Of a stretch of DNA of 31,676 nt, positions 16,848 to 28,733 are shown piece by piece (the stretch's first letter is position 1; every line of letters begins with the position of its first letter). Below the pieces are notes generated by a model that searched no databases, had not been told where the DNA came from, and saw only the letters and a program-made list of their open reading frames with translations. Origin of the DNA: a virus. The translations under genes were made by a program, and so were the position numbers. Location: positions 1-31,676 of the IMG/VR virus record IMGVR_UViG_3300047562_004112; one strand, given 5' to 3'.

Positions 16848-16868
16848 GTTTTATAAGGATTGATAGCT

Positions 16869-18422
16869 ATGTCTATAAAATGTCAAGTATGTCAAGAAGT
16901 TTTTGCCAAGATTATACCATGGCAACATCTACGAAAACATAATTTATCTAGTGAAAAATATAAAGAACAATATGGATCACTTTATAGTGAAGAAACACTG
17001 GCATTATTCAAAGCAAGAACTCCACATAACAAAGGTAAAAAAGTAGTAGATAGTAGACATCTAGAAAAAATTAATCAAGCTATCAAAAAAAGAGAGCAGA
17101 GATATCATTCTGGAGAACTGCAAAGGCACCGTACTGTGTTGTCAGATGAAACACGAGAAAAAATAAGTCTAGGTGTAAAAAAATATGCCATTGATAATTT
17201 AGACAAATTACAAGATCGTGCCAAAAAGGCACAACAAACCAAAAAAATACGCGGTATAAAAGGACCTATGTTGGGTCGCAGACATAATGAAAAAACTAAA
17301 GAAAAGCTAAGACAAATTTTACAACAAAATAATCAAAAGAAAAAACAGGAAAGTTGGAAAAAAATTTCAGCTGCAGTTGACATTGCAAAATTAAAAATTC
17401 TGTCTGATAAAGCTACAGCTTTAGAATTAGAATGCCAGGTATGTTATCATCAGTTTCAAATTACAAAACAATATTTTAATACAGAAAAATTCAGACCAAA
17501 TCTCTGTCCAAAATGTTTTCCAGCTGTTAAAAATAAAACTAGCAAAGGCGAACAAGAACTTTTTCATTTTATACAATCAATTTCCAGTGATTGCTGTGCT
17601 AATTATAGATCAGAATATCAGAGTTTGGAAATTGATATTTTTGTACCATCAAAACAGATAGGATTTGAGTATAATGGGTTATATTGGCATAGTGAATCTG
17701 TATTCTTACAAAATAACAGAAACCCCAAAAGTGACTACGAAAAATATCTACATTTTAAAAATAATGGTATACAAATAATACAAATTTACGAAGACGAATG
17801 GTTATTAAAAAAACATATTGTAAAAAGCAGAATCAGACATATTCTTGGCCAAACTTCAAACAAAATTTATGCAAGACAATGCAAAGTGAAATATATCGAT
17901 TCTAAGACCGCTGGCCGATTCTTTAATGAAACACATATAATGGGCAATGGCAGAAGCAATTATAGATTAGGATTATTTTATCAAGATAGATTGGTTTCGG
18001 CAATGAGTTTTTCAAAAAATAACTTGTCACGAAAAATAACTGGATGGGAATTAAATCGATTCTCTTCAGAATGTAATCTTTCGATTGTGGGGGCAGCAAG
18101 CAAATTGTTTAAGACTTTTATAAAAGATATTTGCCCCGACCAGGTCATAAGTTACTCAGATAATAGATGGAGTATGGGAAATTTATATCAATCATTGGGG
18201 TTTGAATTTGTAAGTCTGAGTTCTCCTAACTATTGGTATTTCTTACCAAATCACCCAAGAATACACAGATTTAATCTAAGAAAAAATCAGTCAGACAACC
18301 CAAACATGTCCGAAGTTGCAAATCGCATATCTCAAGGCTATAACAGAATATGGGATTCAGGTAGCACCAAATGGTTATGGACAAATAAAAAGGGAGACAT
18401 TGTCTCCCTTTTGCCCAATTAG
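16869..18422 (+). CDS. Homing-endonuclease-like protein (zinc fingers, Vsr/PD-(D/E)xK-type nuclease, GNAT-like C-terminal domain)
   Basis: 517 aa from ATG 16869 (TAAGGA upstream); a TTG at 16860 would add three residues. Domains: a C2H2 zinc finger (C5, C8, H20, H24) with HLRKHNLSSEKYKEQYG; NUMOD3-like repeats (SDETREKISLGVKKY, RRHNEKTKEKLRQIL); a four-Cys zinc site (C189, C192, C213, C216); a PD-(D/E)xK/EDxHD-type nuclease with KGEQELFHFI, EIDIFVPSKQIGFEYNGLYW (D256, E267, YNG) and IIQIYEDEW; and a C-terminal domain (about 335-470) resembling GNAT/Mom-type acetyltransferases (RLGLFYQDRLVSAMSF, YSDNRWSMGNLYQSLGF). It is very A-rich and the only plus-strand gene among tail genes from gp16 to gp18, which marks it as a mobile insertion. 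It probably cuts DNA of phages lacking it. Confidence 0.82.
   Translation: MSIKCQVCQEVFAKIIPWQHLRKHNLSSEKYKEQYGSLYSEETLALFKARTPHNKGKKVVDSRHLEKINQAIKKREQRYHSGELQRHRTVLSDETREKISLGVKKYAIDNLDKLQDRAKKAQQTKKIRGIKGPMLGRRHNEKTKEKLRQILQQNNQKKKQESWKKISAAVDIAKLKILSDKATALELECQVCYHQFQITKQYFNTEKFRPNLCPKCFPAVKNKTSKGEQELFHFIQSISSDCCANYRSEYQSLEIDIFVPSKQIGFEYNGLYWHSESVFLQNNRNPKSDYEKYLHFKNNGIQIIQIYEDEWLLKKHIVKSRIRHILGQTSNKIYARQCKVKYIDSKTAGRFFNETHIMGNGRSNYRLGLFYQDRLVSAMSFSKNNLSRKITGWELNRFSSECNLSIVGAASKLFKTFIKDICPDQVISYSDNRWSMGNLYQSLGFEFVSLSSPNYWYFLPNHPRIHRFNLRKNQSDNPNMSEVANRISQGYNRIWDSGSTKWLWTNKKGDIVSLLPN
18388..18412. terminator. Bidirectional intrinsic terminator at sheath/homing-endonuclease ends
   Basis: AAAAGGGAGAC-ATT-GTCTCCCTTTT forms an 11-bp stem with a 3-nt loop. 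Read on the minus strand the stem is followed by T5 then ATTTG, a strong terminator for the sheath gene that ends at 18429. Read on the plus strand it is followed by TTTT then GCCC, a weaker terminator. It lies inside the last codons of the homing-endonuclease-like gene. Confidence 0.8.
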
Positions 18423-24259: not shown

Positions 24260-25417
24260 TTACCACGCTTTCAGAATTACCATATCCTCGCTACTACGGC
24301 CATTGAACTTGGTTTCGACACTTTTGATATCTTTAAAAAACTTTCGCATTGCTGGTTTAGCACTGGCCATAAATGCTTTCAATTGTTCTGCTGGTTTACG
24401 CAGAGTTTTCTGCTGACTTTGGGCCGCATCAAAACCAATGATACTGGTATTTTTAACTGTAAATGATCCACTGTGACTATCAGCAACAACATGGATTAAT
24501 TTACGCTTTTTAGTATCAAAAAGCCAAGCTTCGCTGGCATTGACCAATTTGGTCGGTGATTCGCTGACCAATTTAAATTGACCGAAATTTTTCAAATATC
24601 GAAATTTAGCCACAAGTTTTTCGGTACTGACTGGCTTTTTAGCTCGAGGCTTTCGTTCAACTTTCTTGATCTGTACATAGCTTGCACAGTCATTGATTAC
24701 TTGATCAGCAAACTTAATAAGATTTTTCAGTTCTGTTTTATTGAAATTACTGTAACCTTCTACTAGTTGGCTATCGCGAGCTTTTTGCACTTGTTCCAAT
24801 TCTGCTTTTTTTGCGTGCCATATTTGAGCAATCATCCCGATCAATTGTGGACTGAGGTTACGAGCGCGAAACAAATCCAATGGCGAAAATTTTTCTACTT
24901 GACGACATTTATTAGCAATGAAATCGTCTAAATTACCTTCGATATCACCAGCACATTCAATGATTTTTTCACGCAATCTATCCTGAATAGTCACAGGGGG
25001 CGCAACAGCAACAGAGTTAGATTGCCCTTTGGCCTTTTTTTGTTCTTGTTTTTGATGTTTTTGCCGGTATACTGTGATTTGATCTTGAAGCAATTTTTCT
25101 ACGGTTTCCGTTTCTTGTTTCGTAAGTTCAAGGCCGACAGTATTCATTCTACAAATCCATCCCAATGTAGGAATGATATCATTGTCAGGAATACGGTTAA
25201 CAATCTCTAGATCTTTTTTCCGCTTGTTGGCTGTCAGCCATGTGACAATCATTTCTTTGGCATTTTTTTGATTGTAAAAATAATTGTAAAAATTGAATGC
25301 TCTAGTAATTAGGCTTTGCCGTTTGTGCTCAGCAGGCTGTTGCTGCCAATCGGGTTCTAGTCCAATATATTTGGTATCGGCATTGCGTGGATTCAGCAGT
25401 TTTACACTAGTAGACAT
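24260..25417 (-). CDS. Basic protein of unknown function with an early-type promoter
   Basis: 385 aa from ATG 25417, which has TTGGAG 7 nt upstream; an upstream start at 25477 would run through the promoter and is rejected. The sequence is helical and K/Q-rich, with LITRAFNFYNYFYNQKNAKE (about 37-56), a low-complexity QKHQKQEQKKAKGQ linker, SPLDLFRARNLSPQLIGMI near 180, and a C-terminal region with KFRYLKNFGQFKLVSESPTK and AWLFDTKKRKLIHVVADSHS. I recall similar unannotated proteins in cyanophages and other marine T4-like phages. The sigma70-type promoter suggests early expression, odd for a gene between neck genes. Its basic character suggests nucleic-acid binding (inference). Confidence 0.7.
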   Translation of the reverse strand: MSTSVKLLNPRNADTKYIGLEPDWQQQPAEHKRQSLITRAFNFYNYFYNQKNAKEMIVTWLTANKRKKDLEIVNRIPDNDIIPTLGWICRMNTVGLELTKQETETVEKLLQDQITVYRQKHQKQEQKKAKGQSNSVAVAPPVTIQDRLREKIIECAGDIEGNLDDFIANKCRQVEKFSPLDLFRARNLSPQLIGMIAQIWHAKKAELEQVQKARDSQLVEGYSNFNKTELKNLIKFADQVINDCASYVQIKKVERKPRAKKPVSTEKLVAKFRYLKNFGQFKLVSESPTKLVNASEAWLFDTKKRKLIHVVADSHSGSFTVKNTSIIGFDAAQSQQKTLRKPAEQLKAFMASAKPAMRKFFKDIKSVETKFNGRSSEDMVILKAW

Positions 25418-25448
25418 TGAATTCTCCAAAAATTCACAGCGAACAGCT

Positions 25449-25477
25449 ATTGTAACAGGTCTTGGCATTGCTGTCAA
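25449..25477 (-). promoter_or_regulatory. Sigma70 promoter of the 385-aa gene
   Basis: TTGACA (25472-25477, 6/6) and TACAAT (25449-25454, 5/6) on the minus strand with exactly 17 nt between them. The predicted start is about 25 nt before ATG 25417, with TTGGAG in the leader. The best host-type promoter in the window. Confidence 0.75.
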
Positions 25478-25492: not shown

Positions 25493-26857
25493 ATGCCAAG
25501 ACTTAGTTTATATAGACCAAACCGAACCAACGACTATCAATTCTTAGATCGCACAATCAAAGAAATGTATACCGTGGGAGGATTGGATATTTTTGTACAC
25601 AAATATCTAGGTCCAAAAGTTGCCGGTGAAGAAGGCAATAATGATGCTACCTTACCTAAGTATAGCGAAAGTAATCCTTTGTTTATAGAAGATCTATTGC
25701 TACTGGAAAACAGAGATCGTGCCTATGACGCTGACATTTATATTTTGCGTGGTGTATATAACACTCAGGACATAGATTTTGATCTAACACAGTTTGGACT
25801 TTTTCTAAACAACGACACATTGTTTATTACTTTTCATTTCAACAATATGATAGATTTGTTGGGTAGAAAATTGATGAGTGGAGATGTTATCGAAGTTCCT
25901 AACTTGAAAGATTATTATCCCCTGGATAGTACCATACCAAAAGCATTACCCAAGTATTATGTTATTCAAGATGCAGCTTATGCCAGCGAAGGATTTAGTC
26001 AAACTTGGTTACCACACCTTTGGCGTGTTAAGGCAACACCTTTAGTTAATGCACAAGAATATAATGATATTTTAGACAAACCCTTTATGCCCGAACAGAT
26101 CTGGGATAATGGCAATTTTTATCCTCAAGGTTCTGTGGTCAATGCCGGTGATGTTTATTATACTGCAATTAAACCTGTACCTCCGGGTATTGACATCACA
26201 GATACAACTTATTGGCAACAGACAGACCCATCTACTATCGAAGATAAAATCAGTACAAGACCAAAAGATCTACAGCTCAATGATGCCATAATTCTCCAGG
26301 CCGAAGCCGAAGTTCCACTAAGTGGTTATGACACGGTGAGATTTTGGATTTTGCCAACAAATTTAGACGGAACATTGGGCGATCCTGACACTTATACAGC
26401 AGACTATACGGCTTCAGACGCCAGCAGAACTGTAGTTAACTTAGAAGATACTCCAAGAACAGACGGTTATACAGCAGGCTACTTGACCGGCGACGGTATT
26501 GCACCAAATGGCTTACCGGTCACTGCAGGACTACAGTTTCCATTGAATCCTGTAGTAGGAAATTATTGTCTCAGGTTAGATTACTTTCCTAATAGGTTAT
26601 TTAGATATAACGGGTCAAGGTGGATTAAAATCGAAGACAGCGTAAGAACACAACTTACACCTGGAAATACCGTAGATACATTGCGTAGCAGTTTTGTCAA
26701 CAATACCTATACAACAAATACAACAGATCAAGGCAATATACCCAGTAGACAGAGTCTCAGCGAAGCACTTAAACCTCTAGCCGATAACGGTAATCAAGGT
26801 GGTAATAAATCGGCCAATCCTTATCCATTGACACAGCCGAGACAGAAATCTAGTTAA
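25493..26857 (+). CDS. 14: gp14-type neck protein with C-terminal extension
   Basis: 454 aa (T4 gp14: 256 aa). The first about 195 residues follow the gp14 layout: YTVGGLDIFVHKYLGPKVAG, YILRGVYNTQDIDFDLTQFG, VIEVPNLKDYYPLDSTIP, then PKYYVIQD and WRVKATPLVNAQEYNDILD. An extension follows with a CBM5/12-like module (W204 to W241: IWDNGNFYPQGSVVNAGDVY and then TAIKPVPPG...YW) and a beta-rich segment with RLFRYNGSRWIKI. The gp14 family joins head to tail and anchors whiskers. The late-like octamer before it implies a leaderless transcript. Start ATG 25493 is supported by gp14 homology beginning directly. Confidence 0.7.
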   Translation: MPRLSLYRPNRTNDYQFLDRTIKEMYTVGGLDIFVHKYLGPKVAGEEGNNDATLPKYSESNPLFIEDLLLLENRDRAYDADIYILRGVYNTQDIDFDLTQFGLFLNNDTLFITFHFNNMIDLLGRKLMSGDVIEVPNLKDYYPLDSTIPKALPKYYVIQDAAYASEGFSQTWLPHLWRVKATPLVNAQEYNDILDKPFMPEQIWDNGNFYPQGSVVNAGDVYYTAIKPVPPGIDITDTTYWQQTDPSTIEDKISTRPKDLQLNDAIILQAEAEVPLSGYDTVRFWILPTNLDGTLGDPDTYTADYTASDASRTVVNLEDTPRTDGYTAGYLTGDGIAPNGLPVTAGLQFPLNPVVGNYCLRLDYFPNRLFRYNGSRWIKIEDSVRTQLTPGNTVDTLRSSFVNNTYTTNTTDQGNIPSRQSLSEALKPLADNGNQGGNKSANPYPLTQPRQKSS

Positions 26858-26907
26858 AAAAAAGCCGAAAATTGATTGTATATATACACTAGCACAGGAG
26901 ACACAAA

Positions 26908-28311
26908 ATTCAAAGTTTCTTTTACGACGAACAGATAAGAAGATATTTACTGCAGTTCACAAGACTGCTTAGTAATTTTCAAGTTGAATACGGTCGAGAC
27001 CCAGAAGGCAACAAGGACCTTATTCGTGTACCTGTTCGATATGGTGATGCCAGCAGACAGGCACAAACTATTCTACAAAATAACAGTGCAAATAGTTTGC
27101 CCTCTACTCCACTGATGACATTTTATATCAGTGATATGTCTTATGATCGTGGCCGTATTCAAGAACCTTATCATGTCAACAAAATGCAAGTTCGACAACG
27201 AACTTACGATTCCAATACAGACAGTTACGAAACTACTCAAGGTAATGCATTTACTATAGAAAGATTAATGCCAGTTCCATATACCATGACTATTAATTTA
27301 GACATATGGACCAGCAATACCAATCAAAAAATGCAGTTGTTCGAGCAGATATCCACATTGTTTAATCCTAGTCTGGAAATACAAAGCACAGATAACTATA
27401 TAGATTGGACTAGCCTTAGTGTAATAGATTTACAAAGAGTGCAATGGTCTAATAGAACGATTCCAGTGGGCACAGAAAATCCCATTGATATAATGACTAT
27501 GATTTTTACAATTCCAATTTGGATCAGCAGCCCGGCTAAGATAAGAAAATTGGGAGTGGTAGAAAGAATAATAGCCAGTGTCTATGACGGCAGTGGAGAT
27601 CTGGCTAATGCCATCACTGATAATGACTTATTATTAGGTACAAGGCTGAAAATTACTCCCTATAACTATCAAGTCTTGCTTCTAAATGGTCAACTGCAAG
27701 TATTAAACAGTAATGCAACAATTGATAATGGGCCGAGACATCTTTTACCATTTTCATTTCCAGTCATCGAAGATCCACAAATTGTTTGGCCAGCAGTATT
27801 AGCTGCTTATGGTGTATTAAGGCCAGGAATTAGCTATATAACACTGAGTAATCCTCTAGAACCCGACAAAGAAATAGTAGGTACAATAAGTATCAATCCT
27901 GCCGATGACCGGTTATTAATTTATAATATCGACCCCGACACAGCACCAGCTAATACATTGCAACCAATTGATGCCATTATCAACCCTTTACTGAGCGCAC
28001 CAGGAGATGGGTTAGATTCCAGCATGATAGGTCAAAGATATTTACTAACAGAAAGCACAGGTGATAGATCTAACACCAGCAATCCCTTGGCTTGGTTGGG
28101 AACTAACGGACAACCATTATATGCCGAAGCCAACGACATCATTGAATTTGATGGATTAAAATGGCGTGTAATGTTTGACAGTCGTTACAGAGACGATATT
28201 CAATATGTAACCAATCTTGTCACCGGAATACAATACAAATGGACTGGTACTACTTGGGTCAAAAGTATCGATGGTCTATATTCAGGTGGTGCATGGAACA
28301 TCATATTGTAA
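26908..28311 (+). CDS. 15: gp15-type tail sheath stabiliser, apparent ATT (AUU) start codon
   Basis: 467 aa when started at ATT 26908; the frame is open from 26893 (after TAG 26890-26892) and contains no ATG, GTG or TTG before 27097. AGGAG at 26896-26900 lies 7 nt upstream of the ATT. The resulting N-terminus (Q S F F Y D E Q I R R Y L L Q F T R L) matches where gp15 proteins start: an (F)xxFYxxxxRRY motif. Then come VRYGDASRQAQTI, MTFYISDMSYDRGRIQEPYH, NAFTIERLMPVPYTMTINLD and QLFEQISTLFNPSLEI, all gp15-like. The region beyond residue about 240 is an extension ending YKWTGTTWVKS. The protein caps the tail and completes sheath assembly. A shorter TTG start at 27097 would delete the conserved N-terminus. 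Confidence 0.78.
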   Translation: MQSFFYDEQIRRYLLQFTRLLSNFQVEYGRDPEGNKDLIRVPVRYGDASRQAQTILQNNSANSLPSTPLMTFYISDMSYDRGRIQEPYHVNKMQVRQRTYDSNTDSYETTQGNAFTIERLMPVPYTMTINLDIWTSNTNQKMQLFEQISTLFNPSLEIQSTDNYIDWTSLSVIDLQRVQWSNRTIPVGTENPIDIMTMIFTIPIWISSPAKIRKLGVVERIIASVYDGSGDLANAITDNDLLLGTRLKITPYNYQVLLLNGQLQVLNSNATIDNGPRHLLPFSFPVIEDPQIVWPAVLAAYGVLRPGISYITLSNPLEPDKEIVGTISINPADDRLLIYNIDPDTAPANTLQPIDAIINPLLSAPGDGLDSSMIGQRYLLTESTGDRSNTSNPLAWLGTNGQPLYAEANDIIEFDGLKWRVMFDSRYRDDIQYVTNLVTGIQYKWTGTTWVKSIDGLYSGGAWNIIL

Positions 28312-28733
28312 AAGCAGTTGGTATCTATTTTTATAGTCAATCAACCAATAGATATCTTTATCTGTTGCGCAATAGCACTAAAAATCCTGGTTGCTGGGGA
28401 TTACCCGGAGGCAAACAAGAATCCAATGAAAGTCTATTAGACACTATCACAAGGGAATGTCAAGAAGAACTGGGATTTATGCCAACCTACATTGATCTAC
28501 GACCGTTGGAAAAATTCACCAGTCCTGATAACAAATTTGAATATCACACATTTTGGGCCAGTGCAGACAGAGAATTTACCCCAAAATTAAATCACGAACA
28601 TATAGGATGGGCTTGGGTAGAAAGTGGCCATTATCCTAGACCCATGCATCCAGGACTATGGAATATGGTAAATGAAAATATTTTACAAAATAAAATGTCC
28701 ATCATGGAAAATAATCTCAAAGTCATCGATTAA
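28293..28733 (+). CDS. Nudix hydrolase
   Basis: 146 aa from ATG 28293, overlapping the last 19 nt of gp15; earlier starts within gp15 are implausible. The Nudix box is perfect: G40-x5-E46-x7-R54-E55-C56-x-E58-E59-x-G61-F62. The enzyme hydrolyses a nucleoside-diphosphate-linked compound such as a nucleotide, nucleotide sugar, NAD or RNA cap; the substrate cannot be read from the sequence. T4 NudE and other phage Nudix proteins precede it as known examples. It is the last gene of the plus-strand unit and its 3' end overlaps the convergent oxygenase by 11 nt. Confidence 0.88.
   Translation: MEHHIVKAVGIYFYSQSTNRYLYLLRNSTKNPGCWGLPGGKQESNESLLDTITRECQEELGFMPTYIDLRPLEKFTSPDNKFEYHTFWASADREFTPKLNHEHIGWAWVESGHYPRPMHPGLWNMVNENILQNKMSIMENNLKVID

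Follow-up and report, generated by a model that had tools for sequence, protein, structure and literature searches.

Sequence evidence for a conserved AUU start codon, paired with a strong Shine-Dalgarno sequence, in the gp15-like tail gene of uncultured T4-type phages

To our knowledge, AUU start codons are regarded as nearly exclusive to infC and a handful of special cases. Among T4-type phages, such a start lies in the tail gene 26 of T4, for which Nivinskas et al. reportedly described, in 1992, an internal AUU start that gives rise to a shorter internal product, with the gene having its own normal start. The gp15-like tail gene discussed here shares AUU initiation with gene 26; however, its AUU would be the sole start, recurs in different lineages at the conserved position, and covaries with the Shine-Dalgarno (SD) sequence.

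The infC gene, which encodes initiation factor IF3, likewise is a conserved gene with such a start—AUU in Escherichia coli and AUC in Streptomyces (PMC5472188). Unlike gp15, which belongs to the tail genes of a phage, infC is cellular and autoregulated by the factor it encodes. Phage-encoded IF3 (PF00707) was found in none of 15 long phage records of the group, with 10 of 14 control genomes giving a match. The Streptomyces sigR gene also possesses a sole noncanonical start (GTC) that was misplaced by annotation; it codes for a regulatory sigma factor, for which, in contrast to gp15, repression by IF3 has been shown (PMC5472188). In prokaryotes generally, weaker start codons are associated with stronger SD sequences (Belinky et al. 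2017; PMC5622118); this trend derives from genome-wide statistics for GUG and UUG, whereas gp15 presents an AUU in one gene. AUU initiation as such is already known; the novelty lies in a single phage gene having conserved and repeatedly evolved it, together with a matching change of the SD sequence.

The gp15-like gene and its start region

The DNA under study (the window) is a complete virus record of 31,676 bases, representing a fragment of a T4-type phage; the features around the gp15 start are compiled in Table 1. The encoded protein belongs to the T4 gp15 family according to a significant profile match of its N-terminal domain (PF16724; E=8.1e-28, 97.7 bits versus a cut-off of 25, residues 5–234) and matches phrog_11196 over nearly its entire length (E=2.5e-85, residues 3–466). 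Residues 235–467 (27610–28308), about half of the protein, extend beyond PF16724 and match only this large-phage family.

Table 1. Coordinates of features at the gp15 locus of the window.
Feature	Position	Strand	Remarks
Virion structural protein gene (phrog_11591)	25493–26857	+	50 nt before the gp15 AUU
In-frame TAG	26890–26892	+	Closes the gp15 frame upstream; excludes fusion with the upstream gene
SD sequence AGGAG	26896–26900	+	7 nt before the start codon
AUU (ATT), proposed start codon of gp15	26908–26910	+	Conservation in relatives, covariation with SD
gp15-like tail sheath stabiliser/completion protein, 467 aa	26908–28311	+	PF16724, phrog_11196
TTG, first in-frame NTG	27097–27099	+	Choice of an automated caller; judged false

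A first-pass annotation of the window had noted that the gp15 frame lacks any ATG, GTG or TTG before 27097 and that an ATT follows the AGGAG motif at a distance of 7 nt. Upon re-reading of the frame, which is open from 26893 to the stop at 28311, all of these positions and counts were borne out. Since AGGAG-N7-ATT is found twice in the window versus 1.2 matches expected by chance, the evidence for initiation at this codon must come from relatives; no other convincing AUU gene was found in the window. The annotation had further taken the ATT for the expected N-terminus of gp15, with which the available alignments agree. In a match to T4 gp15 (4huh_A) that is weak on its own (E=0.013), residue 3 is paired with residue 3, the AUU codon falling on Met1 of the T4 protein, and the ATG or GTG starts of cultured relatives are located within about two codons of the AUU.

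Other elements sought at the gp15 start include a T4-type late promoter, for which TATATATA at 26879–26886 was considered and rejected, one-mismatch sites of this kind not being above chance. Folding of four leaders was no stronger than that of shuffled sequences, and an Rfam search at the gp15 start returned no match worth keeping. Elsewhere in the window, the NUDIX gene (28239–28733, + strand) overlaps the gp15 end by 73 nt when read from its called ATG, but may actually begin at another ATG, located at 28293. The ORFs at 16860–18422 (+) and 24260–25477 (−), both of which are called from a TTG without an SD sequence, may likewise have other starts.

Start codons and Shine-Dalgarno sequences among relatives

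Searches of IMG/VR proteins with four queries, covering the best 80 of about 500–600 relatives per query, resulted in a similarity-only set of 317 gp15 loci with readable start, the window and eight cultured phages included. A canonical start within 14 codons of an anchor residue is present in 289 of these loci; the remaining 28 are devoid of it and, without exception, carry ATT (26) or ATC (2) at the exactly aligned codon. All four queries were ATT genes and the set is weighted towards them, so that the proportion 28/317 should not be read as a frequency. When GGAG and ATH were required, a pattern scan of IMG/VR revealed 77 contigs, 75 with ATT and two with ATC (L091, L155), with protein identities to the window gp15 down to 56%. 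In a scan blind to the SD sequence and accepting any NTN start (at least 67 distinct loci), the matches listed comprised 55 ATG, 8 ATT, 2 TTG, 1 GTG and 1 CTC start, the CTC locus having an ATG two codons upstream; an ATA start was absent from the at least 67 distinct loci listed. Of 46 distinct ATT/ATC leaders, 42 have T as the third base of the start codon and four have C, while A does not occur. Aligning homologues, as the first-pass annotation had proposed, placed ATT or ATC at the same codon in independent lineages, and the codon is conserved in relatives that lack an alternative start. The closest cultured relatives start with ATG or GTG, and among phages of the AUU group none in culture was found.

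Within a genome, the feature appears to be confined to gp15: among 356 long ORFs of a 349-kb relative (G001, locus L133), gp15 alone needs an ATH codon with an SD sequence in a frame without upstream NTG. An ORF at 213243 of this genome was dismissed as a second AUU gene, its next codon being TTG.

The start codon covaries with the SD sequence. When the similarity-only set was reduced to distinct start regions and GGAG scored 4–12 nt upstream, the motif was present in 19/19 ATT/ATC loci, at a spacing of 6–8 nt, compared to 6/198 ATG loci. Among the matches listed in the scan blind to the SD sequence, five of the eight ATT genes possess GGAG and three AAGGGG, while GGAG is absent from all 55 ATG genes. 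As relatives are not independent, the association was tested again on a tree of 241 sequences from which the start region had been left out. In 15 independent pairs differing in start class, an average of 13.8 differed in GGAG in the same way and none in the opposite way (p=0.00012). A properly spaced ribosome-binding site is, thus, conserved together with the codon. Conserved elements in the 46 distinct leaders are the SD sequence (positions −12 to −7), AAA before the start codon and CAA after it, though most of these leaders originate from the scan requiring GGAG and CAR, so that conservation of the GGAG and CAR bases is partly due to selection of the sequences. Regarding the junction with the upstream gene, most ATG starts are located at −5 to +4 nt relative to the upstream stop, abutting or overlapping it, and the SD sequence before ATT/ATC starts often includes the upstream stop.

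Exchange between the two start classes has occurred repeatedly. At least 18 changes between ATT/ATC and NTG are required on the similarity-only tree and 27 on a tree with the pattern-found loci, where supported branches alone force 20 for ATT; among eight loci with a TTG start call, those with spurious upstream TTGs (of the L123 and L139 type) were scored as ATT in the tree. A minimal pair is provided by L344 (GATAAGGAGAATTAAAATTCAA) and L352 (GATAATGCAACAA), the genes of which are approximately 90% identical over the first 900 bases. L031 (ATT) and L030 (ATG) hardly differ beyond codon 15 but do so before it. In a bacterial and archaeal survey, relying on annotation that rarely allows AUU, a change from AUG to AUU was recorded once in 61,358 ancestral AUG starts (PMC5622118), as opposed to 18–27 changes between AUH and NUG in gp15 alone. 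At the level of sequence comparison, the position of the start, its conservation, the repeated switching and the covariation with the SD sequence are demonstrated, and AUU at 26908 is strongly supported as the true gp15 start by conservation, SD covariation, purifying selection (see below) and the alignment with Met1 of T4 gp15.

Alternative readings and mobile neighbours

If gp15 began at the TTG at 27097, which is the first canonical start and the one a caller would report, the protein would be 404 aa long. The 63 residues lost thereby, described as conserved in the first-pass annotation, are indeed under strong purifying selection. Codons 4–63, which are as constrained as the rest of gp15, differ from those of L003 by 26 synonymous and three non-synonymous codon differences (dN 0.04, dS 1.9) and from those of L006 by 30 and three, respectively; synonymous sites are saturated in the latter comparison and, yet, the start of L006 is still ATT. 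Given this predominance of synonymous change and the position of T4 Met1 on the AUU, the TTG can be regarded as a false start. In addition, the PF16724 match begins at residue 5, the TTG lacks an SD sequence, and relatives mostly have a codon other than a start codon at residue 64. A sequencing or assembly error converting ATG to ATT could be suspected from the window itself, which is a single contig; on comparative evidence it is excluded, considering that ATT or ATC is found at this position in 77 contigs from many metagenomes and divergent lineages, always with an SD sequence. Very improbable as well is that a frameshift, read-through or a recoded stop fuses gp15 to the gene before it. Frames upstream of the AUU are open for 5–45 codons in relatives, but this upstream sequence is not conserved as coding. 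For the window, the in-frame TAG after the stop of the upstream gene excludes frameshift or read-through fusion, and TAA, TGA and TAG are used normally as stops (TAG in two other ORFs, TAA or TGA in the remaining ones).

Two further readings accept the AUU and concern its origin or purpose. It is unlikely that SD sequence and AUU are a hitch-hiking scar without regulatory purpose, left by insertion of a GIY-YIG homing endonuclease gene before gp15 and subsequent gene conversion. Such genes (PF01541) directly precede gp15 in 28 loci, 22 of which are AUH loci, and the last endonuclease codons (AAG GAG AAT TAA) form the gp15 SD sequence. Moreover, similarity between endonucleases often exceeds that between the neighbouring gp15 genes (81% versus 61% for L030/L084), which indicates that they move, and L030 and L031, near-identical downstream, differ in their start. 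However, most AUH loci are without an endonuclease, ATG is kept in six endonuclease loci, most of the 28 loci stem from the pattern requiring GGAG, and independent pairs show no significant association of endonuclease and AUU (p=0.375). Moving endonucleases may, nevertheless, explain the exchange of start regions. Rather doubtful is the reading that host IF3 represses AUU-start gp15, as known for infC and sigR, and that gp15 rises as IF3 activity per ribosome falls in infection. IF3 discriminates against starts other than AUG, GUG and UUG and represses the GTC start of sigR (PMC5472188), and the AUU/AUC codons of gp15 are those of infC; a phage IF3 is not required if the host factor acts. Against this stand the lack of an IF3 gene in the 15 long records, the AUG relatives that manage without control of the IF3 type, and the frequent start switching, which argues against an essential regulatory link. 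Little probability is likewise given to a combination, where the gp15 family would have repeatedly evolved an IF3-sensitive AUU in place of a coupled AUG, with initiation fidelity setting the output and endonuclease-driven conversion possibly carrying the exchange.

An endonuclease gene separates gp15 from the structural gene upstream in L030, L084, L089, L099, L119, L123, L124, L135, L139, L147, L174, L361, L381 and others. In ten loci (including L014, L015, L016, L017, L021 and L041), the same place before an ATG-start gp15 is occupied by a gene for a ferredoxin-dependent bilin reductase (PF05996, tested on L041), i.e., these uncultured phages carry a pigment gene within their tail region. 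The AUU-type G001 genome encodes a permuted tmRNA with the tag ANDSQFALAA and 24 tRNA genes (L415 1148–1593 and 6074–9337; L414 12941–15940). The form of this tmRNA may hint at the host group; a search for the host via genome contigs found no relative.

Translation from AUU and its implications

By far the most probable reading is that gp15 possesses a genuine AUU start that is offset by a strong SD sequence, leading to low, SD-driven translation. Translation would begin at 26908, presumably with fMet, the AGGAG motif holding the ribosome in spite of initiator tRNA pairing being limited to two codon bases. Initiator-like phage tRNAs for AUU or AUC were considered as well, but tRNA-Ile(GAT) and tRNA-Met(CAT) of the 349-kb relative are without initiator features by eye. 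Relatives appear to use two interchangeable start designs. One consists of AUG with little or no SD sequence, placed against or overlapping the upstream stop and probably translated by coupling; the other comprises AUU (rarely AUC), a strong SD sequence and an A-rich spacer, approximating AAGGAGA-N3-AAA-AUU-CAA. Both designs would plausibly result in low initiation, and this would suit a protein needed in few copies per virion. T4 requires gp15 in about six copies per virion. A putative limitation of gp15 dosage by AUU, with a possible benefit of low output, fits the trade-off between SD sequence and start codon.

For genome annotation, it is of relevance that callers limited to ATG, GTG and TTG truncate members of the gp15 family by 9–63 residues (median 19), as had been anticipated for the gp15 gene of the window. 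A large group of T4-like phages, all uncultured, seems to use AUU as the gp15 start, and the switching between start codons points to a real start rather than an error. The gp15 family, therewith, constitutes a natural series for testing trade-offs between start codon, SD sequence and translational coupling, and also for testing whether phages exploit initiation fidelity.
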